NCBI GenBank assembly: GCA_018398815.1
Contig: CM031600.1
Coordinates: 54,145,334 to 54,209,333, forward strand
DNA length: 64,000 bases
Source of the DNA: Conus ventricosus
Lineage: Eukaryota > Mollusca > Gastropoda > Neogastropoda > Conidae
Direction: 5' to 3'
How positions within the stretch are numbered: the stretch's first letter is position 1; each line of letters starts with the position of its first letter. The notes under the pieces were generated by a model, which ran no database searches, had not been told where the DNA came from, and was given only the letters and a program-made list of their open reading frames with translations. Of this stretch, positions 3,371-22,864 are shown in pieces. The position numbers and the translations under genes were made by a program.

Positions 3371-4261
3371 GAAGGAATGCGAGGAGAGAGGGAGCGGGGG
3401 GGGGGGGGGGGGGGGGGTGCGAGAGAGCGAGAGCTTGTGGGGTGGTTGAAGATGTGTGTCTGTGTGTGTGTGGGTTGCTTATGCAAGGTTTACAATCTGC
3501 TCGACAGACAACAGCATCACGTGGTCCAGAGGATCAACAGTGAAGAAAGCCATGAGGACCGAAGACTGGACACGTTTATAGGAGAAAAGAAAAGAGGAAA
3601 AACAAAAAATGATTGTGTGGGTTGGCTGTCTGTCTGTTTGTCTATCTTGTTTATTTGTTTGTTCCGTGTATCTGTCCGTTTATCGGTCTTTCTCTCTTCT
3701 CTGTCTTTCTCTCTCTCTCTCTCTTCTCGCGAAAACAAAGAGAGCGAGAGCCAGCGACTGTGGGTCATGTCCAGAAACTATGTCCTGGGACGTTGGGGTG
3801 ATTTTGACCGGGATTCGATTGGGGTGATCCCGATTCGGTTCCTCCTCCAGAAGAACCTTGGCCGGAACCCCCAGCCCCTCACTATATTCGAGACCATTTC
3901 CCAGAGATTCGGACGTGGTTGGACGGGTGGGATAAATCTGAAATTGATGCGGCCCCTGATCACATTTTGGTGGAAACGGTATCTTGAATACCTGCGGATT
4001 GGCCTATGATAAACGATGCTGAGAAAAGAGTATCCCTGGAACAACCGCCATGGGCACCTGCTTAATCTACGCAGACACCTTCGAGTATACTGAGGTCGCC
4101 CTATTTGAGAGGGGATTTATGCCATCTCCGCTTGGGGGCTTGCAAACAAGATGTTTTAAAGTGCTTGTTGCTAACTGGCAGCTCCCTTGTAACGATTTAC
4201 CACTTACATTACAAGGAGAGGTCATATACGCCAGGGCCGTGGATTATTATTTAGAGCGGGA
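3371..4261. other. low-complexity sequence, then a coding-like stretch cut by a LINE
   Basis: From 3371 to 3480 there is a purine-rich block with a G run (about 3399-3417) and (GT)n; 3660-3725 is a T/C-rich block with (TC)n. From about 3770 to 4260 composition becomes balanced and several frames stay open, with readable segments such as PEIRTWLDGWDKSEIDAA and TLQGEVIYARAVDYYLER. I do not recognise these. The second segment runs right up to the 3' tail of the LINE at 4262, so an older gene, perhaps viral, may have been interrupted by the LINE. Together with the coding-like stretch at 7137-8300 on the other side, it may be one disrupted locus. Confidence 0.35.
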
Positions 4262-4442
4262 TAAGATAAGATAAGATAATGTTGCTTATAGCCCAGCGAC
4301 CGCAAAGGGCCATATCAGGGCTGTCACCACGTTAAAATCAATCACCAGTCTTTAAAAAAAAAAAAAAAAAAAAAACCAACTTTCACACATCTTGTTAAAT
4401 GACATCGTCTACAAACGCACCAGAAACTTTGTTAAAAATCTT

Positions 4443-4961
4443 TCAGCCGTAAAATCTTAAATCAGATAAAAAAATGTTAATCTCTCTCAAAAACTCAAGG
4501 ATCACGTCAGGCGGGACATCCCTGAACAGGATCTTCATGGACTCCGCCGTAAAATGTTTGTGTCTCACATCGTGCAAGTCCCAACACTCTAAAAGTACAT
4601 GTTTCATTGTGAGTGGCGCATGACATGGAATGCACCACGGAGCTTCTTCACTCCTTAAAAGGTAAGCATGGGTAAAATACGAATGGCGGTGTGCAGCCGG
4701 CACAGAAACCGTTTCCTCTTTACGACCTCCCGACGTGGATGGGAGGAAGTCCTTAAGGTTTGGACGCATCTGAAAGAGTTTGTTACTCGTCTGTGTGTTC
4801 CAATCCTCCTGCCAGAGGTCTCTCACATAATCGTTAATTTTGGGTTTCACATCTGAGCAGGGGATATAAGTGTTGGACAGTTTCTCTCTTGTGGCGTTCT
4901 TGGCTAAACGATCAACCATTTCATTCCCGCCGATGCCAAACATGGCCAGGAACCCAAGCAA
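4443..4961 (-). pseudogene. LINE copy 1: end of RNase H and C-terminal zinc knuckle
   Basis: 172 codons read the end of the RNase H domain (GIGGNEMVDRLAKNAT, the 'GN..AD.lA' box with V-D in place of A-D) and the conserved C-terminus, including CIPCHAPLTMKHVLLEC, a CX2CX7HX4C knuckle typical of I/Jockey ORF2 ends. The natural ORF2 stop is near 4443. The domain start lies in another frame upstream, so this is the tail of a frameshifted ORF2. Confidence 0.85.
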
Positions 4962-5127
4962 AGAGTAATGTTGTAACCGTCCGCCTTCAACTTGCTAAAA
5001 AGTTCAAAAAAAAGTAAAAGTTCTGGATGCTGAAGGTTGCGGCAGCTATGGCCTCCAAAGCTGACAGCGAATCGACAGAACCAGAAAGTCCCTCCTCGAA
5101 GAATGGGAGATTATCTTCAAGCCAGTA

Positions 5128-5796
5128 CTAGAGCAGTAAGTTCAGCAGAATAGACAGAAGCTCTGAATGAATATGTTCCAACAATATCTGAGAAGGAGCC
5201 CCAGGGCAGTAGGCTGCACAGGCCACTCCATCCTCAGACTTGGAACCGTCAGTGAAAACTTTTTGATAGGATGGGAATTTGGAACAGAGCTCGGCATACA
5301 AAGCCTTGTACGCCAGAGAGCTGGTAGACTCCTTACGGAAAGCTGCGAGATCAAAACGAATCTCTGGTGTGAAAAAGGTCCATGGAGGTTGATCCGGAAA
5401 CTTGGAAAAATCGGAAACTACTCCCAGGTCTATACCTGCATTCCGCACGTGAGGCTGCATACGAAGCCCAAACGGCGGAATACATTTCGGGTTTGTTTCA
5501 AACTTACTTTGGAACGGAGGGTCAAAAACACAGTCATAAGCAGGATTCTGTGGTTCTGAGAACAGTCGGATGTAATAATTCAAAGACAGTTTCAGCCTGC
5601 GGTTGCACAGTGAAGGTTCACCTGCCTCTGCGTACAGGCTGTACACAGGGGTGGTGCGGAACGCTCCAAGACAGAGACGAAGCCCTTGATGGTGGATAGG
5701 GTCCAAGAGTTTGAGGTAAGATGATCTTGCGGAGCCGTACACAGCACAACCGTAGTCCAGTTTGGAACGGACCAGGGCTCTGTAGAGGTGCAACAA
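5128..5796 (-). pseudogene. LINE copy 1: RT thumb/connection and start of RNase H
   Basis: 222 codons cover the RT C-terminal region (LVRSKLDYGCAVYGSA, the conserved 'sklDYG..vyg.a' segment; LRLCLGAFRTTPVYSLYAEA) and then the RNase H beginning FTDGSKSEDGVACAAY, which holds the first catalytic aspartate in a TDGS motif. It is separated by one frameshift from the palm domain at 6076-6774 and by another from the RNase H end at 4443-4961. Confidence 0.85.
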
Positions 5797-6075
5797 AGTT
5801 TTCTTATCAGCGCCCCAGTCGGTGTGTGCTACGACCCGCAGAATATTCAGTGCCTTTTGGCAAGCAGTTTTGAGGTTTTTAATATGGCTGAGAAAGTTAA
5901 GTTTTTGGTCAAAAATGATCCCAGAAATTTGGCCTCTTTAACAGCTGGAATGGGAGATTTCCCTACTTGAAGTTCCGGATCTGGAAAAAACTGACGGAAA
6001 TTATGGAAGTGAATACACTGGGTTTTTGTAGCAGAAAGGTGAAACCGTTTTCATCCGCCCACCGATGGATTTTAT

Positions 6076-6774
6076 CTACGCAAAGCTGGAGCCTGCGCTG
6101 GACACTCGGGTACAGGCTTCCAGTTGCGTAGACAGCAAAATCATCCACAAACAATGAGCAGTCTGAACCCTGCTGAACTGATTGAACAATGTTGTTGATC
6201 TTAATACTAAAGAGGGCAGGAGATAGTATGCTCCCTGTGGAACACCCAACTCCTGCTCGTGGACATCAGAGAGAGTGGTGCCAACCCGGACCTGAAACTG
6301 TCGTTCTGCCAAAAAATTTTGAATAAAAAGCGGAAGATGACCTCGAAAACCCAGATCGTGGAGATCATGAAGTATCCCCGACTTCCAGGTGGTATCGTAG
6401 GCCTTCTCCAAGTCAAAGAAAATTGCCACTGCGTGCTGTCTGTTTAAAAAAGCGTTTCTAAGTGTAGATTCCAGACGAATCAAATGGTCAACTGTACTAC
6501 GATGTTTGCGGAAACCACACTGTTCTTTCGCCAAAAGGCCATCGGTTTCGAGTTTCCACATGAGCCTAGCATTGACCATTTTTTCCATCAATTTACAGAC
6601 ACAGCTGGTCAAAGCTATGGGACGGTAGTTAGATGGATTAGAAAGATCTTTTCCAGGTTTGGGGATGGGAATAATGAGGGCTGTCCGCCAAGAGGGTGGA
6701 AAGCAACCTGTAGTCCACACGTGGTTGTATACCTGTAACAGGATGTTCAGACCTTCTTGCGGAAGATGTTTCAA
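6076..6774 (-). pseudogene. LINE copy 1: reverse transcriptase fingers and palm
   Basis: 232 codons carry the RT domain in order: PSSWRTALIIPIPKPGKD, NYRPIALTSCVCKLMEKM, FFDLEKAYDT (motif A, catalytic D), ELGVPQGA (motif B, GxPQG) and, after a frameshift, LFVDDFAVY (motif C as F-V-D-D; plus-strand 6140-6166). FVDD is usual for I/Jockey-type elements. The protein would copy element RNA into DNA by target-primed reverse transcription; this copy is broken. Confidence 0.9.
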
Positions 6775-7136
6775 TAGTTGATAATGTATGTCATCTATAC
6801 CTGGAGAGGAATCGCTGCAAGAGAGTAAGGCAGATTTCAGCTCGTTAATGTAAAAGGAAGATTGTAGTCTTCCATGTTGTCGGATGAAAAGTTGCAGGGC
6901 GATTTTTCTTTTAGGGCTTTGTGTTTGACAAAAGTGACTGATTTATTAGAAGAGGAGGAATTCTTTTCAATGGTTGAAGCAAGCAGATTAGCAACTGCTT
7001 TCTTTTCTGTTATTAAAGAATCCGAAAACTGAGATGGTTCACAGTGGGACAGGTGTTCTTCCCTTTGATTTTCTTAATGATGTTCCACACTTTTTTCTTA
7101 GAAGTTTGTGATGTCAGCCTGGAGCAGAAGCTTCTC

Positions 7137-8300
7137 CAGGACAACAGCAGCGAGACGACGAGGTGCAAACGGAAGAAGTCTTATCCGCTCCATTATCCGA
7201 ACCCAATGAACAGCCAATATCTCCTGAGCGTCCCCCTCCTCCGCGCCTGCGTTTGTCCCACGTGCGTGCCAGAAACACAGATACCACGAGGCTGTCCCTA
7301 CCAAGGCTGTCCCTTCTACCTTCTCTCCCAAGACCTCCTTATGTATGTCATATGCCCCTTCCACCTCAGTTAACCCTGTCCCCTCCACCTCCTCATTTAA
7401 CCCTGTTCCGTCCACTCCTCACTTAACCCGATCAGATCTTTACTTCTACACCCAATGGTCCCTGCACACCTTCCCATAACCCTGCTACCGACATCGAACA
7501 AACCCTGATGGCGCTGGAGGATTGGGCCAACTCCATCAACATCCTTACCTTAGACACTGTGGAGACTACCCTGGACACGATGCTAACCAGCATCACGGCA
7601 TCCTGGACACCGAGAAGGCCTGTTTGGCGAACGTGAGGCTAATTTGCATTTCTTTTTGTGTGTGTGAATGCTGTTTGTGTGACTGTGAGGGGCGCTAGGG
7701 AGGGGGGGGGGGGTCCGTTGTAACAATCTTTTACATTGTTTTTGTAGCCTTCACGGTGCAATCTGACTAACCAAATATGCCTATTCTGTTTTGTTGTGTG
7801 TATTTGCAGATGGTCAAGACAGTCAAGACCTGCACGCCAAATGTTAGCCAGACCAACAAACAACCGGTGCATGTACGTGAACCAAGCCAAATACGTGTCC
7901 ATTTTTGTCAGGATGCTCACCGGGCTGCTCAACAGGGGAATGAAGTGACCACCACAAAAACATCCTCATGGCGGATGTCTTTCGGGAGATCTCCAGTTTG
8001 GATCTCGAGAAAGTCCTACCCCCCACCGGCGATACCACCCAGGACCACCAGGAGTTGTCAATTTGGTAAAACTGTAAGCTCGTGGAGCTCCAAGCTGAAG
8101 TCAAGAAGATGGCTAGGGAGACCAACCCGTCTTCTGATCCGGTGGAGGTCGGCAATGGGAAAGGAAAAGGCAAGAAGGAACCAACGTGTACCGTGACAAG
8201 CGCCACTCAGACAACAACGCCCGTTCAGACAGCAGACAAGACATTTGACATTTCTCCCTCTCTCTCTCTCTCACACACACACACACAGCACTTACATGAC
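7137..8300 (+). pseudogene. unidentified coding-like region with an intron-like gap
   Basis: Immediately right of the truncated LINE, plus-strand frames read a Ser/Pro-rich segment (QTEEVLSAPLSEPNEQP) and then, after frame changes, MALEDWANSINILTLDTVET. A stretch resembling an intron follows (AACGTGAGG near 7630, then tgtgtatttgcag at about 7797-7809), after which frames read VFREISSLDLEKVLPPTG and KLVELQAEVKKMARETN. The last part ends in a (CT)n/(CA)n tract (8255-8287). No domain is recognised. It may be the continuation of the coding-like stretch at 3770-4260, split by the LINE, or a separate decayed gene (gag-like or viral structural are guesses only). Confidence 0.35.
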
Positions 8301-8616: not shown

Positions 8617-8765
8617 CTTATGTTGGAGATCACAATCATCTTGGTGAAGATGAGCACGTGCAGAGGTCTGCCATTGTGAATGATATGAAAGCACGAGTCA
8701 GAAGAGATCCTACCCACAGTTTGCACGAAGTATATAATATAGTCCCTGGGGGACGGCATCAGGCT
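8617..8765 (+). pseudogene. FLYWCH/MULE-type zinc-finger remnant
   Basis: The frame here reads GDHNHLGEDEHVQRSAIV, followed by MKARVRRDPTHSLHEVYN. The H-N-H with a following polar helix and 'K.R......p...iy' spacing resembles the end of FLYWCH-type fingers and the adjoining region of MULE-like transposases. Only about 45 residues are visible; nothing before or after in the same frame supports a complete protein. It sits about 150 bp upstream of the PC4-like gene but does not obviously belong with it. Confidence 0.4.
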
Positions 8766-8920
8766 GACTCGCTACTGGCACACTTCCCCCATCTCCCTCC
8801 TTCTTCGCCAACCACTACTTGGTAACCAGACTGCGTTTGTTGGGGTAACCCCCTCCTTTTTTCTGCGGATGTCAACCTGCTGTTCCGGACTTTGAAAGTT
8901 TTAGCTTCAACGCGGCCAAG

Positions 8921-9283
8921 ATGAATAAGGTAGAAAAGGATATTCGAGGGCAAAAACTCTATAGACTGGGAATGAGGAATACTTTTGCCGCGGTTAACGA
9001 GTGGAAAGGCGTGAAACTGCTCCACATCAGACGCTACGTCGCCCCATCTTCTTCTTCTTCTTCTTCTTCTTCGTCCTCTTCCGACGACGAGGTGAGAGAG
9101 ACTCGCTATGTGCCCACGAAAAAGGGAATAGCCCTCAACCACGACGAATGGGAGGCTCTGCGGGAGATGAGCGATTTCATTTCTCGCTCATTTACGGACA
9201 AAAAAACGAAGGAAAAAGGGGAACGGCCGAGAAAAAAAGGAGGAGGGTGGTGGGGAAAAAAACAACGGAGTAACCGAGCGTGA
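8921..9283 (+). CDS. PC4-like (transcriptional coactivator p15) ssDNA-binding protein
   Basis: 120 codons. Residues about 20-45 read NTFAAVNEWKGVKLLHIRRY, the first strands of a PC4 fold. A Ser run follows, then an acidic patch, then YVPTKKGIALNHDEWEALRE (about 66-85), the hallmark 'P.kkGI.L....W..L' helix-leading segment of PC4/p15 proteins. The C-terminus is Lys/Arg-rich. PC4 proteins bind single-stranded DNA and act in transcription or replication. The serine tract is encoded by a (TCT)n microsatellite at 9049-9070, which interrupts the fold between strands and is unusual. The frame is intact from ATG to stop. It lies 113 bp upstream of the kinase-like gene on the same strand, as in a compact viral genome. 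PC4 assignment is fairly safe; its role in this element is inferred. Confidence 0.75.
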   Translation: MNKVEKDIRGQKLYRLGMRNTFAAVNEWKGVKLLHIRRYVAPSSSSSSSSSSSSDDEVRETRYVPTKKGIALNHDEWEALREMSDFISRSFTDKKTKEKGERPRKKGGGWWGKKQRSNRA

Positions 9284-9395
9284 GCCCCGTCGTTAAAGAG
9301 ACACCAAAATACACAAATCCGCGTGTGTTTCAGTCTTCTCTTTTTTTTTTTAATAGTTTGGCTCACCCTTGTGGATTAGAAAGAAAAGAAAAAAA

Positions 9396-10143
9396 ATGGG
9401 GAATTTGCTCAGTTTAGAAGCGATCGAGGGACAAGCGGCTTGTGGCAAAACTACGTTTGTAAACGCTGAAAAAAGCAAAGGCCGAAGTGACTACGCTTAC
9501 GTAGAAACGGATCCTGGCACGGTGACAAAAGTTTATTTTTTTTTAAAAGACGTTCCTGAGGCGCCTACGGATTGCGCGCAGTCGGGTATTTCTACGGGTT
9601 ATTGGCTAAACCTCATCACTAGGGTGACTACGGCAAAAGAGAGTCGCCTTTTAATCGACAGATCTCCTTTGTCGCAGTCCTTATAACGAATTTCTGTGGA
9701 GAAGATTGTTCCCATGCGTGAAGGCCGCCATAGAGGACAAAGTAAAGACTGATCATTTTCGAGACTTAGACGCAGAAACGGACGCTGGGTGGGTGTTTGT
9801 TAGACGGGCGATGAGGTGTAATGAGGGAGTGAAAAAAGCCCTCTGTGACTTTGACGAGCTCGCGTTGGCTCTGTTGGACGATTTAAAGGCTTGCGCCGAC
9901 TCTTGCTTCGTGCTGACCACCATATACCTGTCTTTCAATGATTGGACCGATCAAACGAAGCATAGGGCTGCCGACGAACGTCGTCGCCTAAGAGGGGTTT
10001 CGACGCCCTCACGGAAAACGCCGGCACTGCTAGGATCAACTACGAAGGGCTCCTGTACTCTCCGCTGGAGACGCTATTGTGGCAGAACTTGTGGGACGCT
10101 TACTGTTGAAAGTTTCGGTCTAAAAACTGGGGCAGTTTCCTAA
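9396..10143 (+). pseudogene. P-loop nucleoside/nucleotide kinase-like gene, frameshifted
   Basis: The ATG at 9396 follows an A-rich leader. Residues 9-20 (AIEGQAACGKTT) hold a Walker A motif G-x4-G-K-T close to the N-terminus, as in deoxynucleoside/thymidine kinases of the dNK family. LLIDRSPLSQSL about residue 85 resembles the 'RSP.S' motif that follows the DR/ER motif in those enzymes. The frame stops at 9686. The following frame (9706-10143) continues with FPCVKAAIED and further helical-looking sequence, so one frameshift near 9680 splits the gene; at least one further shift lies near 9990. Such enzymes supply dNTP precursors for viral DNA synthesis. The exact substrate class cannot be read from the sequence. 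Confidence 0.6.
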
Positions 10144-10229
10144 CGTTGATCAGAGTGGAGACGGACTCCGACGGGCTGCTGATCGACCCTGAAACGAAAG
10201 GAGAACCGACTTTCCTTCGGTGCGGGCGA

Positions 10230-10360
10230 GACTGAACACATACACACACAAAAGTAAAAAAGAAAAGAAGCAGACACGCGCGCACGGGACGCGGCGTTGT
10301 GTACATAGAAATATGTGGTGACTCTAGTTTGTTTTTTTAGAGTGTGTGTGTGGTGTTTAG

Positions 10361-10423
<63 letters not shown>

Positions 10424-10528
10424 CGTCTCTTTTCCTTTTTTTCAACGACGAGGTTTGTGAACTCTTTTCGTTTGTTAGTTTCAATAAGGCATTGATTAAT
10501 TAGTTCCTGCCGCATTATACTATTTGGT

Positions 10529-10572
<44 letters not shown>

Positions 10573-11225
10573 CGTAGTAGTGTTTGATAATGCGTTGAGT
10601 GCGGTTTTTTTTTTTTTTTTGACGCTTGATTATAGATCGTTTTACGGTTAAATTAATGAGTTTTTGCGCGTATGTTCGGATCGAATGCGTGGGATGAAAC
10701 GATTCGTGTATGCGTGTGCATGCGCGCGCGTTTTGGTCATTGCGTTTTAGATAGTTTTTTTTTTTTTTGGTTGTTGTTGTGCTACGCAGATAGAGATGCG
10801 TTTTGATGCATGCCGTTTTGGTTTTTTATGTAATAACCGGTCAAAGTTTTGCTGTAAAACAATAATTTGTAGTATGCGCTATAACGCGCCTCGTGTGGGG
10901 TGACGGGTCTCGTTTTAGCCGTGTCTTAAATGAAAAAAAACTGTATCGTGCATGCGCGGTGTTTGATCACATTTGGTGACTGTGTTTGGTGCATGTCGTT
11001 TTTTTTTTTTTTTGACGAAGTTTGCTGTGAAAAAAAAAATGATATAACGATCGTGCGGGTGGTGTATCAAGATATACCTTTATCGTGTGTGTATAACGTT
11101 TTTTTTTTGTGAAAAAAAAAAAATTTGATATAACGATCGTGCGGGGTGCTGTATCAAGATAACCTTTATCGTGTGTGTATAACGTTTTTTTAGTAACCAG
11201 GCTGGTTTTTTGTTGTTTGTTTTTT
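10230..11225. other. non-coding interval of the viral-like element: (GT)n and T runs
   Basis: No gene is seen between the kinase-like gene and the zinc-finger/polymerase gene. The interval has (GT)n tracts at about 10365-10421 and 10536-10571, several T runs (10603-10620, 10757-10769, 10999-11013) and the direct repeat described separately. Short 'ORFs' here are products of the dinucleotide tracts. Confidence 0.6.
11028..11187. repeat. two-copy direct repeat of about 80 bp
   Basis: The block from gtgaaaaaaaa through gatataacgatcgtgcgg, gtatcaagata, cctttatcgtgtgtgtataacg and a T run occurs at 11028-11109 and again at 11110-11187 with a few changes. Within each unit, ataacgatcgtgcgg and tatcgtgtgtgtataacg share cgt/acg-rich words that could pair weakly. 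It lies just upstream of the polymerase gene, which is where a regulatory or origin-like repeat would be expected in a viral genome; that role is inference. Confidence 0.75.
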
Positions 11226-11235
11226 TCGTTCTGTC

Positions 11236-11520
11236 ATGTATCAGCCCACCGGGTCCTTCCCGCTATACCTGCCCCCATTGTAAAGCGGAGTTCGAGGAAC
11301 GGGATGGTTAGAGGCGCATTTGCGAAACGACCATACCGTAGGGGGTAGTGGTATTTTCTTACCTGCGCCGAGTGCGGCGCACGATTTTCCAGGAATTGGA
11401 CTTTAAAAAGGCACCTAAAAAATGGCTGTCGCGGTAAAAAAAGAAAACGCCTCACAGCCCAAACCCCCCTCCTACTATAAAAACGCTCGAAATGGGAGGA
11501 AAAGGAAAAACGAGATGATG
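11236..11520 (+). pseudogene. two C2H2/C2HC-type zinc fingers at the start of the polymerase gene
   Basis: One frame reads YTCPHCKAEFEERDG; the histidine half continues in another frame (EAHLRNDH), giving a C-x2-C ... H-x4-H finger split by one frameshift. The second finger reads TCAECGARFSRNWTLKRHLK with a following N-G-C, a C-x2-C ... H-x4-C finger. A Lys/Arg-rich stretch (KKRKR) follows. Finger pairs preceding a family B polymerase are seen in invertebrate virus-like elements with DNA_pol_B_2 polymerases. The fingers probably contact DNA or RNA; the start ATG is likely 11236 but is one base out of frame with the first finger. Confidence 0.6.
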
Positions 11521-14500
11521 TGGACGGGTGGGAAGGGGTGATGATAGACGATCCGGATTTGGCGGCCGACTATAGGGATAATTGGGGGCGATTCGAACCC
11601 ATTCTTACACCGGGCCCAATCAGTCCATGTACAACGTGCGTTGGCGGGGGGATGGGACGGTGCCCCCAGATTGGGAAGAGGAGTTGCGGACGCGTTCGAG
11701 TCTCAAAACAGAGAGACGGGGGCCTTTAGGTTCTTTCACGCTAGTCAAAATAACGCTAGGGTTTTAGACGCCCCCCGTCTCGTTCAAAACGAACGGATTT
11801 TCGGGAATTTATTCCGAGCTCCAAAATCAGGATCTGTTAGAGTATGCGAGGCAACAGCGGCCGGACTTACGCTGGACGGTGCGTTGCTTGACTTCGACCA
11901 GCTTTTACCTGAATCCGCTCAGGGATTCTCGATCGGGTGTTGCGATCACCCCCTCCCCCCTCGCCTTTTGTCCAACAGGGGCGTGTACCCCCTGGTAGAG
12001 GATAAGAAGCATTTCTTTCCTTACGAAGATAACCTTGTGTTTTTTTCGCTGCCTGGCCCTGCACCGGGGGTCCTGTAAAGGGTTTACAAACTCCGGTGAA
12101 GGAGTTGGTTCGGCGTTGGACCCCCCCGGGACAATTCGGGGGCGTGACTCTGTCCGACCTGCCTCGGTTGGAGCGCCTCTTCGACGTGGCCGTAGACGTG
12201 TTCTCCTTGGACGAGGAGGAGGAGGGCTGTTTCGTACCTCGCGTAGAAGCCCCAGGGTCGACTCCCGTCCGCATGAGGGTACTCTTGTACAAAAAACATT
12301 TTTGCTACGTCTCCGACCTAAACAAAGCCACTAACTCTTTCGGATGCCCTCATGCGGGAAGCAGTGGAAGAAGCTGAAAGAGTTATCGCAACATGAAACG
12401 TATTGCGGGGGTAAGGTGAGGCAGTGTATTCGGGGGGCGTGTACCAGCGGCCTATGACCCCCTTGGAGACTTTGGCGGACAACGGGATTCGAACCCCTTC
12501 GAATTACGTGTACCCGTATAGGGCGACGTACGATTTCGAAGCGTTTCAGGTACCGCTAAAGAAGGGGATAAGAGCAAACCGAAAAGACCGAGTACCTGTA
12601 CGAGCACGTCCCTTTGTCCCTGAGCGTAGTGCGCGAACGTGCCCGGGTTCGAGGAGCCCGAGTGCTTCGTGTCGGAGGGCGACCCCGCAGGACCTGGTAG
12701 ACCGCATGCTGGCGCACCTTCGAGCCGCGTCGGATAAGGCTTACGACCTGCTAAAGAGGGGGAATTCAGCGGGGTGTACGATCAGATTCGAACCACGACC
12801 AACCCCGTGGATTTGACCCCGAACGAATGACGCGTCTTTTAGACGATTACTTGAAAGAACTGCCCGTGATCGGGTTCAATAGTTCGTCTTACGACCTAAA
12901 CCTGATCAAACCTTACCTGTTTAGAAACCTGGTGTTAGAGGGGCAGCGGAGGAAGAGGAGGATGAGCAGGGAGAAAAGGGAGAGCTGCGTTCGCGTTACG
13001 TGATCAAGCAAGGCAATCAGTTTAAGTGCGTATCCACTCCCAAACTCAAATTTTTGGATATCCGGTATTACCTGGCGCCCGGGTATTCTTACGATAAGTA
13101 CCTGAGGGCGTACGACGTGAGTCAGAGCAAGGGGTTCTTCCCTTATTCGTACGTCAAAAACCCCCTGACCGACCTCGATCCTGCCCGGGCTCCCCCCGCG
13201 CGAGGCGTTCGATAGCACCTTAAAGGGTACCACTATGTCGGAGGAGGATTACGATACTGCCTCTCCGTGTGGCGCGAAAAGGGGATGAGCGCGTTCAGAG
13301 ACTTTCTCGTCTGGTATAATAACCTGGACGTAGTCTCCTTCCTGGAGGCCCTAGAAAAACAGGTAGAGTTTTACAGGAGTTTGGGTATAGACATGCTCAA
13401 GGACGGGGTGGGCATTCCGGGCATCACCCTCAAATACCTGTTTCAGACTGTCCCCCTCGTCTACCCCCGATGCCCACTTCTCTTTAGTGGGACCCTCGCA
13501 CGCCGACCTGCACGAGGAGATGCGAGCGCAGATAGTAGGGGGGGCCGTCGTTAATTTACCACAGGTACTACGAAAAGGGAGTGACGTGGGTTCGGGGCGG
13601 CAAACTCGCTTCCTGTTTACTAGGCTTCGATTGCAACGCCCTGTACTTGTGGGCGTTGATGAGGGAGCAGCCCACGGGCGGGTTCGTCAGGCGTCGTAAG
13701 TCCAACGCTTTCAGGGCCGAAAAATGCGACAAATTCGGACAACAGCTCGGGAATGGCTAGAATGGGTGGCTCATAAAGAGGTAGAACGCTCAGGCACAAA
13801 TTCAACGGAAAAGAGAGGTGCTTGGGCGAGCGGAGAGTCCGGGTGGAGGACGGTGGGACCAGAGGGATAGGATGTGCTTTCAGTACAACGGTGCGTCCAC
13901 CACGGCACGCGTGTTGCACGACCGAGGCCTACACGTCCACCCATACAGCCACAAGTCCATGGCCGAGTTAAGGCGCGTACCGCAGAGACCACCAGGTACC
14001 TGAGGGAGGAGGTGGGCGTGGTGGAGATGTGGGAGTGCGAGTGGGCGACCATGAAGAGGGCCGATCGCGACCTGCGTCGCTTCTTACGACGTAAATGCCC
14101 CAAACTCAAGAGCCCGTTCCATGACGATGGAGAGGATGTGACCGTCTCCTCGGTCGTCGAGGCCGTAAAAAAAAGGTTCTCTGTTCGGCATCGTCCAGTG
14201 TGATATCGAGGTGCCCGAGTCTGAGGGTGCATTTTTCCGAGCTCCAGCCCGTCTTCAAAAACGTAGGTCGTGACCAGAGAGGACATCGGCGAGTTCATGC
14301 GTTCTTACGCGATCGAGCACGGCCTGTTGTCCCAGCCCAGGCGAGTGTTGGTGGGTAGCTACTTCGGTAAGGCCATCATGCTGATCACCCCTCTTTTGCG
14401 GTGGTACTTGTCCCACGGCCTGCGCATCACCGACGTGCAACAGGTGGTGGAGTACCGACCCGCGGCTTGTTTCAGGCCGTTCGTGGAGGCCGTCTCGGAC

Positions 14501-15350
14501 GCCAGGAGGCAAGGGGACGCTCACACCGGACAAGCAGATCCTGGCCGAGTCATCAAACTCATGGGCAATAGCGCCTACGGCAAGACGGTGACCAACGTAG
14601 CCACGCATAGAGACGTGAGTTTCGTGAGTCCCGACGAGCCCCTCTTCCGTAAATTAACCCCCTTAGCCGAGGATCTGCAGGAGGTAGAGACGACGAAGAG
14701 CCCCTTGCGTTGGAACTTGCCCGTGCAGATCGGATTTTTCGTCTACCAGTACGCCAAACTGCGCATGCTGAGTTCCATTACGACCTGATCGATCGGTTCG
14801 TATCCAGAGCCGATTACCAGGTGTGCGAAATGGACCGCGATTCCTTTGTACATGGCCTTGAGCGGGCCGGACTTCGGGTCCGTGATCAAACCCGAGCTAA
14901 GGGCCGAGTTTTACCGGGTGTACGACCTGTGGTTCCCGGCTCTGGCGTGCGAGGAGCACAAGGGAGTTCGCCGATGCTTTGGGGCGGTGGGATGAGGAAA
15001 AGGGGAATAGACCTTGTTGCTCTAGTAGAAAAAAGAGGACAAACGGGAGCCGGGGTTGTTCAAAGAGGAGTACAAAGGGGACGGAATCGTGGCCTTGTGT
15101 TCCAAAACGTACTTTTGTTTCGGTCCGGAAAAAAAACAAAGCCAGTAGCAAAGGGATCAATCAGAGACAAAACGACTTAACCAAACAAAAATACTTGAAC
15201 GTACTTACGACCCGCGAGTGCGGGTACGGGACGAACATGGGATTCCGTACGGACGGGGCGCGGGTGCACACGTACTCCCAAACGCGCGGGTCCTTGTCGT
15301 ACTTTTAACCCAAAGCGAGTCGTCTGTTCCGACGGCGTCAGCACCCGACC
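11521..15350 (+). pseudogene. family B DNA polymerase (protein-primed type), frameshifted
   Basis: Motifs appear in the right order on the plus strand. A pre-exonuclease region reads GGVTLSDLPRLERLF near 12140, then a VYQRPMTPLETLADNGIRTP segment. Exo I D-F-E is at 12532-12540 (in TYDFEAF), Exo II at 12878-12895 (FNSSSYD), Exo III at 13315-13329 (YNNLD), polymerase motif A at 13629-13646 (DCNALY), motif B at 14555-14580 (KLMGNSAYG), and motif C at 14830-14844 reads MDRDS instead of the usual D-T-D-S. The long gap between motifs A and B fits the TPR insertions of protein-primed enzymes, and DNA_pol_B_2 is the matching domain class. Open segments end and restart in new frames at least eight times (for example near 12070, 12420, 13215, 13550, 13760, 14200, 14790 and 14860). 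It would replicate the element's DNA; this copy cannot as read. Confidence 0.8.
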
Positions 15351-15402
15351 CATCCTGATCTAAAAAAAAAACGAATCAAGAACTCCCTTTTTTTTTATAC
15401 GT

Positions 15403-15580
15403 ATGCGTTCGTTTATCTAAACAGTAAAGGGCTGAATGTCTGAGGCTATGGTCGGGCCAAAACAGTATGCGTTCGTTTATCTGATCAGTAAAGGGCTAAT
15501 TGTCTGAGGCCAAAACAGTATGCGTTCGTTTATCTGATCAGAAAAAGGCTAAATGTCTGAGGCCATGGTCGTGGCCAAAC
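15403..15580. repeat. three-unit tandem repeat after the polymerase gene
   Basis: The phrase tatgcgttcgtttatctgat, followed by cagtaaagggctaa and tgtctgaggc, occurs at about 15403, 15466 and 15520. Units are about 63, 54 and 60 bp; the first and third carry an extra tggtcg.ggcc tail. It sits just beyond the polymerase stop and about 140 bp before the next LINE. It could be an intergenic or terminal repeat of the viral-like element. Confidence 0.75.
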
Positions 15581-15721
15581 AAAAAAAAAAGGGTTGTTGA
15601 TTTTTTTTTGTTGTGTTGTTTTTAGGGGTGTGTAACGGTTGTTTCGCTTGTGTAACGTAGCGCAACAAACAGTTTTTTTTCCCCTCCCTTTCATCGTATT
15701 CTTTTCGAATGGCTGCGCGAG
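15581..15721. other. short AT-rich spacer, nothing recognised
   Basis: Between the tandem repeat and the LINE 3' tail there are only A and T runs and no coding signal. The sequence gaatggctgcgcgag directly borders the (GATAA)n tail. Confidence 0.5.
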
Positions 15722-15812
15722 GATAAGATAAGATAAGATAATGTTGCTTATAGCCCAGCCGACCGCAAAGGGCCATATCAGGGCTGTCCACACGTTAAAA
15801 TCAACTCACCAG

Positions 15813-15860
<48 letters not shown>

Positions 15861-15929
15861 AACTTTCACACATCTTGTTAAATGACATCGTCTACAAACG
15901 CACCAGAAACTTTGTTAAAAATCTTTCAG

Positions 15930-16770
15930 CCGTAAAATCTTAAATCAGATAAAAAATGTTAATCTCTCTCAAAAACCCAAGGATCACGTCAGGCGGACAT
16001 CCCTGAACAGGATCTTCATGGACTCCGCTGTAAAATGTTTGTGTCTTACATCGTGCAAGTCCAACACTCTAAAAGAACATGTTTCATTGTGAGTGATGCA
16101 TGACATGGAATGCACCACGGAGCTTCTTCACTCTTTAAAAGGTAAGAATGGGTAAAATACGAATGGCCGGTGTGGCAGCCGCACAGAACCGTTTCCTCTT
16201 TACGCCCACACCGACGTAGATGGAGGAAGTCTTAAGGTTTGGACGGATCTGAAAGATTTGTTATTCGTCTGTGTGTTCCAATCCTCCTGCCAGAGGTCTC
16301 TCACATAATCGTTAATTTTGGGTTTTCACATCTGAGCGGGGATATAAGTGTTGGACAGTTTCTCTCTTGTGGCGTTCTTGGCAAAACCGATCAACCCATT
16401 TCGTTCCGGCCGATCCCAACATGGCCAGGAGCCCAAGCAAGAGTAATGTTGTAACCGTCCGCCTTAAACTTGCTAAAAAGTTCAAAAAAAAGTAAAAGTT
16501 CTGGATGCGAAGGTTGCGGCCAGCTATGGCCTCCAAAGCTGACAGCGAATCCGACAGAACCAGAAAGTCCCTCCTCGAAGAAAGGGAGATTATCTTCAAA
16601 GCCAGTACTAGAGCAGTAAGTTCAGCAGAATAGACAGAAGCATCTAAATGTATATGTTCCAAAAATATCTGAGAAGAGCCCCAGGGCAGTAGGCTGCACA
16701 GGCCACTCCATCCTCAGACTTGGAACCGTCAGTGAAAACTTTTTGATAGATGGGAATTTGGAACAGAGCT
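15930..16770 (-). pseudogene. LINE copy 2: RNase H and C-terminal knuckle
   Basis: Minus-strand frames read FTDGSKSEDGVACAAY (about 16752-16705), then AELTALVLALKII, FLVLSDSLSALEAIAG (the 'SDS..AL.al' box) and, after further shifts, a degraded GN.wVDR.a box. The C-terminal knuckle is present near 16100 as in copy 1 but out of frame. The RNase H would remove the RNA template strand. Confidence 0.8.
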
Positions 16771-16906
16771 CGGCATACAAAGCCTTGTACCCAGAGAGCT
16801 GGTAGACTCCTTACGGAAAGCTGCGAGATCGAAACTAATCTCTGGTGTGAAAAAGGTCCATGGAGGTTGATCCGGAAACTTGGAAAAATCGGAAACACCC
16901 CCAGGT

Positions 16907-17224
16907 CTATACCTGCATTCCGCACGTGAGGCTGCATACGAAGCCCAAACGGCGGAATACATTTCGGGTTTGTTTCAAACTTACTTTGGAACGGAGGGTC
17001 AAAACACAGTCATAGGCAGGATTCTGCGGTTCTGAGAACAGTCGGATGTAATAATTCAAAGACAGTTTCAGCCTGCGATTGGACAGTGAAGGTTCACCTG
17101 CCTCTGCGTACAGGCTGTACACAGGGGTGGTGCGGAACGCTCCAAGACAGAGACGAAGCCCTTTATGGTGGATAGGGTCCAAGAGTTTGAGGGGAAGATG
17201 ATCTTGCGGAGCCGTACACAGCAC
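16907..17224 (-). pseudogene. LINE copy 2: RT thumb/connection segment
   Basis: 105 codons read LDPIHHKGLRLCLGAFRTTP and RRLKLSLNYYIRLFSEPQNP, matching copy 1 at 5128-5796 almost residue for residue. It begins and ends in frameshifts. Confidence 0.85.
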
Positions 17225-17594
17225 AACCGTAGTCCAGCTTAGAACGACCAGGGCTCGAAAAGGTGCAACAATGTTTTCTTATCAGCGCCCCCGTCGGTGT
17301 GTGCTACGAAACCCCCAGAATATTCAGTGCCCTTTTTGGGAAGCAGTTTTGAGGGTTTTTAATATGGCTGAAAAGTTAAGTTTTGGTCAAAAATGACTCC
17401 CAGAAATTTGGCCTCTTTAACAGCTGGAATGGGAGATTTCCCTACTTGAAGTTTCCCGGGTCTGGAAAAAACAGACGGAAATTATGGAAGTGAATACACT
17501 GGGTTTTTGTAGCAGAAAAGGGTGAAACCGTTTTCATCCGCCCACCGATGGATTTTATCTACGCAAAGCTGAGCCTGCGCTGGACACTCGGGTT

Positions 17595-18523
17595 TCAGGC
17601 TACCAGTTGCGTAGCAGCAAAATCATCCACAAACAATGAGCAGTCTGAACCCTGCTGAACTGATTGAACAATGTTGTTGATCTTAATATAAAGAGGCAGG
17701 AATAGTATGCTCCCCTGTGGAACACCCAACTCCTGCTCGTGGACATCAGAGAGAGTGTGCCAACCCGGACCTGAACTGTCGTTCTGCCAAAAAATTTTTA
17801 ATAAAAAGCGGAAGATGACCTCGAAAACCCAGATCGTGGAGATCATGAAGTATCCCCGACTCCAGGTGGTACGTAGGCCCCTTTTCCAAGTCAAAGAAAA
17901 TTGCCACTGCATGCTGTCTGTTTAAAAAAGCGTTCCTAAGTGTAGATTCCAGACGAATCAAATGGTCAACTGTACTACGATGTTTGCGGAAACCACACTG
18001 TTCTTTCGCCAAAAGGCCATCGGTTTCGAGTTTCCACATGAGCCTAGCATTGACCATTTTTTCCATCAATTTACAGACACAGCTGGTCAAAGCTATGGGA
18101 AGGTATTAGATGGATTAGAAAGATCTTTTCCAGGTTTGGGGGGTGGGAAATAATGAGGGCTGTCCGCCAAGAGGGTGGAAAGCAACCTGTAGTCCAAAAC
18201 GGTTGTAAACCTTAACAGGAGTTCAGACCTTCTTGCGGAAGATGTTTCAATAGTTGATAATGTATGTCATCTATACCTGGAGAGGAATCGCTGCAAGAGA
18301 GTAAGGCAGATTTCAGCTCGTTAAATGTAAAAGGAAGATTGTAGTCGTCCATGTTGACGATTGAAAAAGTTGCAGGGTGATTTTCTTTTAGGGCTTTGTT
18401 TTTTGACAAAAGTGACCGATTTATTAGAAAAGAGTAGGAATTCTTTTCAATGGTTGAAGCAAGCAGATGAGCAACTGCTTTCATCTCTGTTATTATAGAA
18501 TCCAAAAACTGAAGATGGTTCAC
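17595..18523 (-). pseudogene. LINE copy 2: reverse transcriptase
   Basis: Three overlapping frames carry the RT. The first (18523-18212) starts with the region before the fingers (DSSPGIDDIHYQLLKHLP). The second (18090-17746) reads TSCVCKLMEKMVNARLMWKL and FFDLEKG in place of FFDLEKAYD, so motif A is damaged just after the catalytic D. The third (17912-17595) reads ELGVPQGSILFLPL (motif B) and SLFVDDFA (motif C). Frames change at about 18200 and 17750. Confidence 0.85.
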
Positions 18524-18999
18524 AGTGGGACAGGTGTTCTTTCCCTTTGAATTTCTTAATGATGTTCCACACCTTTTTCTTAGAAGTTTTTGATGTCAGC
18601 CTGGAGCCGAAGCTCTCCAGACCGACGTATACTGATTTTAAAAGTGTTATCTGATTAAAGCACGGAGTTTCTTGATGGGCTTCGAGCGTTTGGGACCCGA
18701 AGGTCGTTGGTATACCTGACGCTGAGCCCGTATTCTACTTTTGGAAATTATGTTGGCATTCTGAATCAAACCAGGGTGTTATTGGCATTTGAAGTTTGTC
18801 GGAAGACACTGGAATACAGGCTATAGGCGAAGCAGAAGCACATTTAATCATAATATTAGACAGTGATTCAGCTGGTCAGGACTCTAATAAAATCAGTGTC
18901 TGGAACTCCCTTGGAAAATAGTGGCTGCAAATAGATCCCAGTTTGCTTTCTTATAATTTAAATGCTGAGAGCCAGAGACGTGTTCAGTTATTACAGGTT

Positions 19000-19700
19000 T
19001 TAGCAGACAGGGAAATGGTCCACTTCCGGCAGATCGACATGGAACAGACCACTCAAAGTCCAGTAACCAGCGAGGGGTCACAAACCGACAATCTAAACAC
19101 ACGAAAGTGAACCTGTGGAATAATGGAGTAAGTTGCAGATATCCGTCGTTTCAGACAACACCAAATTCAAATCCGTAAGGACATCCTCAATCAGCAGACC
19201 TCTGAGAATGACGAAACGGTACTACCCCACAGAGGGTTGTGACCGTTAAAGTCACCCCACAGCAAAAAATGACGAGGGAGTTCCTCTATCAGACTGACAC
19301 GGTCCTGACGACAAAACCGTGACAGAAGGAGGTTAAATAAAAGTACAGGATTGACACAGTCTTGTGGAGAGTGACCTCGCAGCAACATCTTGAAGGGAGG
19401 TGACAGAGAGCGACAGGACTTATACAGTAGAGTTTTGTGTATGAGAAGGGCAACACCGCCCACCATCCCAACGTGGATGGTTGAGCCGATTTGAAAGAAT
19501 ATTAAAGCCAGAAAGAGTAAAGGTCTTCTGGCTTGAATTTTGTATATCCCTGAACAGCCACGACGGAAGGTTTTATTAGATTGGCACAAAAGCCTGCAGC
19601 CCTCAAGTTGGAATTTAGTCCACGATATTCCAATGAAAAATGTATTATCCTTGGTGCAGAGGGCGAAAAGAGGAAGAGGAAATCAGGTCAACTTCCTCTA
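19000..19700 (-). pseudogene. LINE copy 2: AP-type endonuclease
   Basis: The minus-strand frame at 19589-19191 reads MVGGVALLIHKTLLYKSC and LLWGDFNGHNPLWGSTVSS. GDFN with the following H-N-P-L-W-G is the metal/phosphate-binding motif of LINE endonucleases of the EEP family. The N-terminal part (LEYRGLNSNLRA.G..AN) lies in a second frame near 19640. This enzyme nicks the target DNA to prime reverse transcription. The copy is frameshifted, and sequence 18600-19000 between endonuclease and RT is too degraded to read continuously. Confidence 0.8.
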
Positions 19701-20142
19701 CAACGTCTGTGCTAAAGGTGTAAATTTTATTTGAGGTATTACTGGACTGTGTTGGTCATTCCAGACCTTGCTGGCAGACTTGCCAACAGGTGAAGAAGGA
19801 GGTCTGATTTGGGAGACGGAGGAGGTTTTTTCTTCTATCTCCTCCATCTCCACACTGGGTTGAACACCCTTGCCTGCAGGCCACGGGCACTGGGACAGAG
19901 AGTTGAGGGGATAATTGCTTGGTTTTTAATCTGCCCAGCAGCAGAATTTTGTAGACTGCTGGGCAGTCTTGAGGAGTGGCGGATTTTTTGCCGTCCACCA
20001 GGGGCCAGTCACTTTAGGTTGGGAAGGTGGTGGACCTTGCTACCACCAGAACTTACAGATCGTACTTGCTAATGTTTTACGAAAACGTAAAGTTATCTAG
20101 TCTGACAGCAAGACGACCGAGTTGAAACTGTAGGAACTTTCT

Positions 20143-21021
20143 TTACGCCGAAGCATATGAAGGATGCTGTCGGCGACTGACTGCCCACAACCTGCTTGCG
20201 GGCTTCGAAAAAGGAGATCTTCTTTCATTTTTGATTCTTTGAATAGCGGAATCCTGAAATCCAAAGAGGGCAGTTTCGAGAAGAGGAGGGAGTGGGTTGT
20301 CCACACCGCAGTTAGCACAATGTGCCGATCCAATGACACGGCCCATCATTGGGTTGCCTTGCCGCAAAACACCGCATACCTCTTGCCCTGAACAGCGGTC
20401 CCTGACATGGCCAAACTTCTGGCACCTGAAGCACCTCAGCGGGACGGAACATATAACTGAACATGAACATTCAAGTAACCAACTTTGATGACCGGAGGCA
20501 GCACAGGGTTGCAGAAGGTCAGAAAGAGGGTGTTGGTGGCCACTCTCTCTGAACCTTTCTTTACTGTCACCCTGCGCACCTCCTGTCACACCCTGGGATG
20601 CCAGCTCCGTCTTAATTTCTGCCTCTGATACACCAGATAAATCCCTGCAGCGAATCACGCCTTTTGATGAGTTTAACTGTTTGTGGGGAGTTACCCTGAT
20701 CTCCCTGTCCACAAGTTTCTTTGCCTTCAGCAGCTGTTCAGATTGTTTTGGTGATTTACACTGAATAAGAAATGAACCATTCCTCAACCTCTTGATGGAC
20801 CGAGGGTCACCTGCTAAAGCTTGAAAGCCCTTCTGTATGGCAAAAGGGCTCAGAGCTGAAAGGGGTCTTTCCTGCTCCGTCCCTTCCATCACGAGCCAGG
20901 AAGCCCAGAATCCTGTCCTCTGTCGTACCTCCATATCGGAATCACTATCTGAATCAAAATTCCCTGAAATAGGGGATGCAGCCTTCCTCTTTTTTGGGGG
21001 GATTGTTTTTGAAAAAGCCAT
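20143..21021 (-). CDS. LINE copy 2 ORF1, gag-like protein with CCHC knuckle
   Basis: 292 codons are open from ATG at 21021. The N-terminus is basic with an acidic/serine patch (KKRKAASPISGNFDSDSDSD). Residues about 70-110 (FQALAGDPRSIKRLRNGSFL) form the RRM-like portion common in I-type ORF1 proteins. A CX2CX4HX4C knuckle, CFRCQKFGHVRDRC, lies near residue 200, and further Cys pairs (CANCGVD) follow. ORF1 proteins bind element RNA and chaperone it. The middle (about 150-185) and the end after the knuckles look shifted in frame relative to family norms, so the protein may not be fully native. Confidence 0.8.
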   Translation of the reverse strand: MAFSKTIPPKKRKAASPISGNFDSDSDSDMEVRQRTGFWASWLVMEGTEQERPLSALSPFAIQKGFQALAGDPRSIKRLRNGSFLIQCKSPKQSEQLLKAKKLVDREIRVTPHKQLNSSKGVIRCRDLSGVSEAEIKTELASQGVTGGAQGDSKERFRESGHQHPLSDLLQPCAASGHQSWLLECSCSVICSVPLRCFRCQKFGHVRDRCSGQEVCGVLRQGNPMMGRVIGSAHCANCGVDNPLPPLLETALFGFQDSAIQRIKNERRSPFSKPASRLWAVSRRQHPSYASA

Positions 21022-21761
21022 GATGTATTGTATTTTATTTCATCTCTCCCTTACCCACCCACCTTGGAGTCCAACTAAGGGGCCAGGGCCAAGAAACCAA
21101 TGTCTTGACCCCTTCCAGGCTTCGGGAGAGATAATACGACAAACAGAAACTACCAACCCTATCCCCCCTGATCATGCTCAACTCCCGGGGACAGAGAGCT
21201 GAGCACTGCAGGGGTTAACTTGGCCAGTAGGGGAACTGTCCGTCTTGACCCAGCCCCAAGAAGGGGAGCCGATTAAGTACACCCGGGCCAAAGTGTACTC
21301 CCTGTCTAGGAGAGGTCCGAGCCAAAGTGATGTGTTGAGAGCGCTGGCCCTCTCAATCACCAGGATCTCATTCCCCTCCGACACAGGTCGCACCGCACGG
21401 CAAACGCGGCGGATCTGAAGGAGACCACAGAGAGAAAAGGAGTGTGGAAAAGAAGACTTGAAGGGGAGACAAAGATAGAAAAGGGCCAAATAAGGGAGGC
21501 AGAAAACAAGAAAAGGAGAAAGGTGGGTTACTCTTAGTCAGGATCCTCACCCTTAGCCTATCTGACATGGGAAGCCCTACCAGGGGCATCAACTCCTTAC
21601 CACGTTACACTTAGGCCAAACAGCATCTGCACCTCTCAGGCCTAGAAGCAGTGTGAAAAAAACAGCCTATCGCCAAGTATTGATGCCCCCGCCAGCAAAG
21701 CCTAAGGGATCACTGGACCACGCAAACCCTCCGACCACGACAAGGTCGCAACCCCCCGGAG

Positions 21762-21763
<2 letters not shown>

Positions 21764-21801
<38 letters not shown>
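21764..21801. repeat. (GA)n tract
   Basis: A near-perfect GA dinucleotide run abuts the LINE 5' end and separates it from the hAT transposase remnant. Confidence 0.9.
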
Positions 21802-21803
<2 letters not shown>

Positions 21804-21840
21804 CAGTTGGTGCATATATCTAGAAACAAAGATCGTACTT

Positions 21841-22328
21841 CCAGCGATTTTAGAGTCAGGACACATAGCTTGTATGGCTTTTGCAAATCTCCCAGCTGAT
21901 GCAAGGGAAAGATTTGACTCGACGATTAGCCGGCACAAGATGGCTTCTGCTTTTGTGACATCGTCGTCGATGGAACTGGAGGGGCCTGCCTTAGCTTCGT
22001 CGCGAACAAAAAATGAAGTAATGGCTGTACTCTTTACACCTGCTAGTTCTTTGTGTGCGCCTGAGGCCAACGTGTTTTTTGCAGTCATGAGGCCGCCGTG
22101 TTTCACTGAAAAATGAGAGTTGCATATCGTGCAGTGTGCAAACTCGGCTCCTCTCGTTGAAGGAACGAGACAAGTGTAGGCTTCATGATGGCTTTTGGTA
22201 AATTTCTGTCCTGCTTTACGGTGTTTTTTTGCCGAGTTTGACCGCTTCTTAGAATTGTCCTCCTCCTCCATCAATATTAAATCATCCTCATCATCTGTTT
22301 CATGCGTTTCCGCTTGTCTAATGTCCAT
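21841..22328 (-). pseudogene. hAT-family transposase N-terminus (BED-like finger)
   Basis: The minus-strand frame from a likely ATG at 22328 reads an acidic N-terminus (ETDDEDDLILMEEEDN), a basic stretch, then AEFAHCTICNSHFSVKHGG with a following histidine pair, a BED-like C-x2-C ... H-x-H finger. STAITSFFVRD and LCRLIVESNLSLASAGRF follow, and CPDSKIA close to the end. This order (finger, 'SFF' box, 'a..f.v..nlpf...d', 'DSKIA') is typical of the hAT transposase-derived proteins of animals. The DDE catalytic region and hAT dimerisation domain are missing; the frame runs into unrelated sequence near 21841 and the LINE lies beyond. It is a truncated remnant, probably not a functional gene. Confidence 0.75.
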
Positions 22329-22864
22329 TGTGAATTTGTCTCTGCAGATGAAAGGCACAAACACATGGCACGACGGCGAGACGTGACGAGACGTGAAAGT
22401 GGGTCAAAGAGCTGTGTTCAGGAGAGCCGATTTTTCAGCGCGACAGCGGACTGCGCGGCAGTGTATAATGTAGTAAACTTAGGCGGGCATGCTTTAAACT
22501 TGAACCAGTCAAACTGCTGGCGAGAAAAAAAAAACTTGGATCGGCGCAAAAAACTTGGATCGGCGCGCAGAAATTGGCAGAGCAGAAATGAACAGAAGCG
22601 TAGTTTATTTTATGGTAGCATCGTAGCACAAGTGCCAAAATTCGGAGTTTGCCGCCAAAATCGTAGAGTAAACAGGTCTGCATTTTCCCACCATCACAAA
22701 GCAGAGGAATCATGCTCCTGTTATCTTGTTATCAAAGAAGCAAACTCAACCAGGTGAGATTTTGCATGCAAGAGTTAGAAACGTGTTGCTCTGTGGTTAA
22801 AGCACCTAAACTGGCATGTGAGACATACAGTTGCACTCTTCAAGTGTGATTACCATTTAAGAAG

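Follow-up and report, generated by a model that had tools for sequence, protein, structure and literature searches.

A probable decayed group I Maverick/Polinton relic with PC4-like and kinase-like genes in Conus ventricosus, and mirror-image copies of its family

The analysed stretch of 64,000 nucleotides from the genome of Conus ventricosus (hereafter the window) carries a truncated copy of what is read here as a Maverick/Polinton element (Table 1), in which PC4-like, kinase-like, zinc-finger and polymerase parts, all located on the plus strand, follow one another in the order first described. The genome searched comprises 3.52 Gb in 12,740 contigs, and the element forms a multi-copy family within it. 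Homology to one of these copies, designated C16, starts at position 8733, runs in pieces to 15458 and resumes at 15588-15722 (blastn). At the left edge (8733) the C16 copy extends beyond the relic into more ORFs, while at the right edge (approximately 15721) a LINE tail interrupts the window copy and other copies extend past this point. Both ends of the window copy are lost, and no integrase was detected in the window. It had been proposed that the missing genes might lie at 3.8-4.3 or 7.1-8.3 kb; however, when the whole window was compared with 12 ORF pieces from the left half of C16 (from the integrase and the ORFs interpreted as ATPase, capsid and protease), no credible match emerged (best E 0.016 over 33 aa), and this proposal was abandoned. 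The relic is flanked by two minus-strand copies of one LINE-type retrotransposon (4259-7142 and 15719-21166), the latter of which cuts its right end and of which many more copies are present on contig C10242. Elsewhere in the window, tandem repeats of 68-186 bp occupy positions 1575-2116, and a 220-aa ORF on the minus strand (21702-22364) resembles, by eye, the zinc-finger start of a transposase.

Table 1. Features of the relic in the window
Feature	Position	Strand	Evidence
Truncated Maverick/Polinton copy, right (replication) half	8733..15721	+	blastn homology to C16 and other copies
PC4-like ORF, intact, 120 aa, poly-Ser insert	8921..9283	+	Pfam PF02229
P-loop kinase-like gene, two broken frames (9399-9686, 9655-10143)	9399..10143	+	motifs
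Non-coding spacer, GT repeats and 86-bp tandem repeat	10144..11235	.	tandem repeats 10367-10421, 10537-10570, 11030-11191
C2H2 zinc-finger stretch, polymerase N-terminus, frame-broken	11236..11440 (limits by eye)	+	tblastn to C16
Protein-primed-type family B DNA polymerase pseudogene, several frames	11548..15180	+	motifs, Pfam, tblastn
Decayed Vsr-like insertion homologue	13763..14060 (limits by eye)	+	tblastn, two polymerase pieces versus relatives
53-bp tandem repeat, 3 copies, between polymerase and terminal region	15401..15579	+	
Right breakpoint, LINE tail (GATAA)n	15720..15740	.	other copies continue there

The product of the PC4-like ORF, a putative single-stranded-DNA-binding protein, scored 40.8 bits on PF02229 (cut-off 25), thereby upholding the initial identification of this gene. 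Comparison with the PDB returned three PC4 chains (E 0.014-0.023), and the structure predicted for the protein, albeit at low confidence (mean pLDDT 56), consists of five strands followed by a helix. A protein database search returned 58 candidates, none of which attained E ≤ 1e-3. In C16, C4 and C12, whose PC4 pieces are frame-broken, the scores remained under the PF02229 cut-off (14.7, 21.5 and 15.5 bits, respectively). In the PDB alignment the tryptophan of the motif KGIALNHDEW is aligned to a PC4 tryptophan, and we take it to be the same residue as W89 of PC4. The latter residue has been described to stack on DNA (PMC4350104). In the C12 copy, a second ORF is situated upstream of PC4 (L041:7374-7901); it displays a PC4-like helix pattern by eye, and no Pfam match was obtained for it.

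The kinase-like gene is frame-broken, with the P-loop (EGQAACGKTT) and a DRSPLS motif in the first of its two frames and the remainder in the second; an ADERRR motif is also present. In an alignment of five loci, broken ones included, the residues around DRSPLS, T-I-Y-L-S and AD-x-RR proved to be conserved. Neither half in the window matched a Pfam kinase family at E ≤ 1, and among 58 candidates retrieved from the protein database with a kinase half none reached E ≤ 10. Similarly, a natural, nearly complete ORF of 233 aa (L046) matched no Pfam family at E ≤ 10, and no solved kinase was matched in the PDB by the kinase-like protein, the L046 ORF included. A PDB match to the repeat protein 7on7 was composed of six weak stretches and was rejected as spurious. 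The kinase motifs of the gene were thus recovered, while the dNK identity suggested for it, to which its P-loop, DRS and lid-like motifs would correspond, found no profile match; based on its motifs, the product is designated here as a putative P-loop kinase-like protein.

The polymerase gene has decayed into a pseudogene. Its piece at 14267-14788 matched PF03175 under the cut-off (E 0.011, 15.1 bits; cut-off 25.8), and displays 31% identity over 134 aa to the L001 polymerase of the same genome (in a comparison whose E-value covers eight loci only), which possesses an open frame of 1317 aa and scores 66.8 bits on PF03175. The family B assignment made at first sight is reached in two steps, from the window piece to PF03175-positive L001, even though the direct PF03175 match lies under the cut-off, and protein priming is predicted from the sequence. 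The DTDS of relatives is changed to DRDS in the window copy (14833-14844). The long polymerase ORFs of relatives were all under the PF03175 cut-off (3/3; 12.6-17.1 bits), and none of the four C16 polymerase ORFs matched this family. Zinc fingers, regarded originally as a gene of their own, are retained in the window as broken pieces only (approximately 11.24-11.44 kb, by eye against C16), although they are clear in both C16, where the ORF scores 34.0 bits on PF00096, and C12. Since the C12 copy holds the fingers and the polymerase N-terminus within one open frame, the fingers do not constitute a separate gene there, and their reading as such was discarded.

Inside the polymerase lies a Vsr-like domain characterised by the motifs D-G-W, HGCxxHxHxC and EMWECEW. 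A profile of this insertion derived from seven loci matched three Vsr chains (best E 4.7e-4), the next match being at E 0.13; single insertion sequences were under the Pfam Vsr cut-off in four of six cases and gave no match in the other two. The motif was identified in nine of the 15 loci L009-L023, the window copy (L009) being among the six without it, and in none of the eight loci L001-L008, which score well on PF03175 (up to 66.8 bits). A Vsr-like polymerase insertion of approximately 140 aa is reported to distinguish the Mavericks of group I from those of group II (PMC10328495). L001-L008 make up another polymerase family of this genome; as they lack the Vsr motif, both Maverick groups may coexist in one host.

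The association of the three genes was assessed across the genome. All PC4 candidates (150/150; 60 matches merged to 43 loci) and all kinase candidates (114/114; 85 matches merged to 48 loci) were scored, while the polymerase search gave at least 152 matches and its counts represent lower bounds, as the best 150 of 6554 candidates were scored. On the same strand as PC4, a kinase is located 371-511 bp downstream at 28 of the 43 PC4 loci, and at no fewer than 14 of the 43 the downstream sequence includes a polymerase piece at a distance of less than 8 kb. PC4 is accompanied by kinase and/or polymerase at 31 loci at least, with 12 displaying neither among the matches listed. Seen from the kinase, a polymerase piece on the same strand follows at a distance of 3.7-5.3 kb at 14 or more, and of 1-12 kb at 17 or more, of the 48 loci. 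Three PC4 loci possess a polymerase and no kinase match, and some copies may therefore lack the kinase. Because the spacing of 371-511 bp recurs at 28 of 43 loci, the PC4-kinase linkage is no accident, and the notion that the host's own PC4 and kinase genes adjoin a polymerase relic by chance, in favour of which the adjacency itself and nothing more can be cited, is effectively refuted. The condition named beforehand in the first-pass annotation as refuting its own reading, namely genes of separate loci that merely adjoin one another, fails at the same loci, where PC4 and kinase were found together.

In C16, an rve integrase (PF00665, 57.6 bits versus a cut-off of 32.6) is followed on one strand by ORFs interpreted as ATPase, minor and major capsid, and protease, and PC4, kinase and polymerase come after the protease-like ORF on the same strand, within the inverted ends. 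Nothing over the Pfam cut-off was obtained for the ORFs read as capsid (by eye only), ATPase and protease. The inverted ends of C16 (21217766-21218482 pairing with 21232962-21233675, 86.7%) form part of a terminal repeat that reaches approximately 0.87 kb inward from the low end at 21217609, which starts AGTAGTAT; the last ~157 bp are missing from the high end. C12, a more distant copy, matches the capsid-like ORFs of C16 in unchanged order, and its protease-like ORF matched PF00770 under the cut-off (E 0.002, 18.3 bits; cut-off 21.3). A match to PF04665 (E 0.1) was likewise under its cut-off. A 6-bp target-site duplication was not found at C7, and the high end of C16, as mentioned, is cut. 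The AGTAGTAT ends of this family resemble the (AGT)2 end motif published for vertebrate Mavericks (PMC8097293).

Taken together, what the window contains is very probably the replication half, now decayed, of a group I Maverick/Polinton, a virus-like element of approximately 16 kb with inverted ends, a retroviral-type integrase, and PC4 (often with the kinase) ahead of the polymerase. The block, its gene order, its Maverick type and its PC4 gene had been recognised correctly in the first-pass annotation, while the kinase family named there found no profile match and the zinc fingers are not a separate gene in C12. It had furthermore been suggested that the module may represent an undescribed lineage outside the known Mavericks. 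Such a virus lineage, not a Maverick and with a replication module of its own, would be consistent with a limited literature search that found no Maverick gene set containing PC4 or this kinase, and with protein searches (PC4, kinase) and a viral-contig scan that retrieved no relative (six pattern stretches and no relatives with the C16 polymerase ORF). It is nevertheless improbable, as the integrase, the inverted ends and the AGTAGTAT terminus are Maverick features, and the same applies to the weak match with an adenovirus protease and to the Vsr-like insertion. Since the polymerase family carries this insertion, which marks group I, a lineage outside the Mavericks is unsupported. With the anatomy, gene linkage, family and decay of the element established by these comparisons, it is a known kind of element furnished with an accessory replication module (PC4, kinase) that we did not find in print.

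Copies of this family elsewhere in the genome were surveyed for mirror-image arrangements using 150 polymerase matches listed, merged to 141 copies. Among these matches, all seven pairs of polymerase neighbours at most 15 kb apart are arranged head-to-head with the polymerase ends outward, and pairs within 40 kb comprise eight head-to-head and two tandem ones. The centres of four of the seven pairs were read and are near-perfect hairpins, their arms being 95.7-99.1% identical: C7 (arms 98.6%, loop 60 nt), C29 (96.9%, 87 nt), C10 (95.7%, 119 nt) and C25 (99.1%, 1707 nt). At C7, the only one whose element ends were seen, the arms span 6699920 to 6709925, both limits being ends of the element, and the flanks differ. 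The C7 arms are 98.6-98.9% identical to each other versus 87.4-95.7% to C16; as they reach up to 97.6% with C4 and up to 97.0% with C10242 (over 0.5-0.8 kb), the arm identity of 98.6% does not exceed that to every other copy by a wide margin. By our own reading, a G/C run of about 7 nt at the C7 turn is common to both strands. Inverted arms of at least 500 bp and 80% identity were present, among twenty 10-kb stretches fetched, only in C7 and C4, the other 18 and all seven window stretches being devoid of them. At L031 (C4:102283933-about 102298100), also head-to-head, the arms are ~83-84% and ~88-94% like C16, and this locus is either a recombinant of two lineages or the result of two insertions. 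By eye, kinase pairs less than 15 kb apart include two on the same strand (C4 102230341/102235687 and C3 133569725/133582049) and one head-to-head (C33 45518), while a pair at C5 (81180/81200 kb) is oriented tail to tail, approximately 19 kb apart.

Self-copying of a folded-back strand to its 5' end would yield such a shape, and we judge the chances to be even that several family copies are integrated snap-back genomes. The alternative, under which the head-to-head copies arose through inverted duplication of chromosomal DNA or through misassembly rather than as integrated replication products, is possible, if on the doubtful side. Fold-back chromosome inversions are known (PMC7467729), C7 lacks a target-site duplication in addition to being the one hairpin whose ends were checked, and the C4 arms are only 82% alike and differ by lineage, which, like the same-strand and tail-to-tail kinase pairs, the two tandem polymerase pairs and the similarity of the C7 arms to C4 and C10242, speaks against the hairpin reading. 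Conversely, the C7 arms terminate at both element ends between unlike flanks, the turning points differ among the four hairpins read, and an arm divergence of 0.9-4.3% is unlike a plain read artefact. The rarity of such arms in the stretches mentioned above argues in the same direction. A limited literature search found no palindromic Mavericks.

The replication mode of Mavericks has so far been inferred from gene content, and we know of no direct demonstration of how these elements copy themselves. In the mechanism judged likeliest, the polymerase would start at the ends of a free linear genome and copy it by strand displacement, the PC4-like protein most likely coating the displaced single strand, and the kinase most likely raising the nucleotide supply. 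An unprotected displaced strand that had been copied from the end on the polymerase side might occasionally fold back and serve as its own primer, with synthesis running to its 5' end and producing a mirror-image molecule that the integrase would insert as such. If several copies are indeed integrated snap-back genomes, the host genome would constitute a fossil record of errors in the linear strand-displacement replication of Mavericks, and defective Maverick genomes would move alongside full ones. The location of PC4 beside the polymerase and the chromosomal hairpins hint, independently of one another, that a free linear genome is replicated by strand displacement, and the hairpin reading can be checked in any Maverick-rich chromosome-level assembly with no need to revive an element.

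Replication of AAV starts in another way than that of the Maverick type. AAV snapback genomes, which are self-complementary half genomes that are symmetric or contain an unpaired loop (asymmetric), share their shape with the hairpin copies described here, but are found in parvovirus particles, whereas the latter are chromosomal (PMC8235507). Thymidine-kinase-like genes are carried by Bidna-class parvovirus segments (PMC11071296), and the polymerase of this group is said to derive from Polintons (PMC11071308); by description, the nucleotide-kinase-like gene is common to these segments and the present family, although they represent a different kind of virus. The association of PC4 with Mavericks/Polintons was not encountered in a limited literature search. 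Group I Mavericks/Polintons (Kapitonov and Jurka 2006, as cited in PMC10328495) have in common with the present family the Vsr-like insertion in the polymerase, the rve integrase, inverted ends, an AGT-type terminus and a protease-like gene; the present family differs in having two further genes, one PC4-like and one P-loop kinase-like, that are located after the protease and before the polymerase, and may also differ in the C2H2 fingers of its polymerase ORF. Vertebrate Mavericks share the polymerase, integrase and inverted ends, as well as capsid, protease and ATPase as these are read in C16 (PMC8097293). Their genes are described as forming two modules of opposite orientation, although not in all cases (Xenopus tropicalis being one exception), in contrast to C16, in which all recognised genes occupy one strand; furthermore, that account makes no mention of a kinase, whereas the present family possesses a kinase-like gene.
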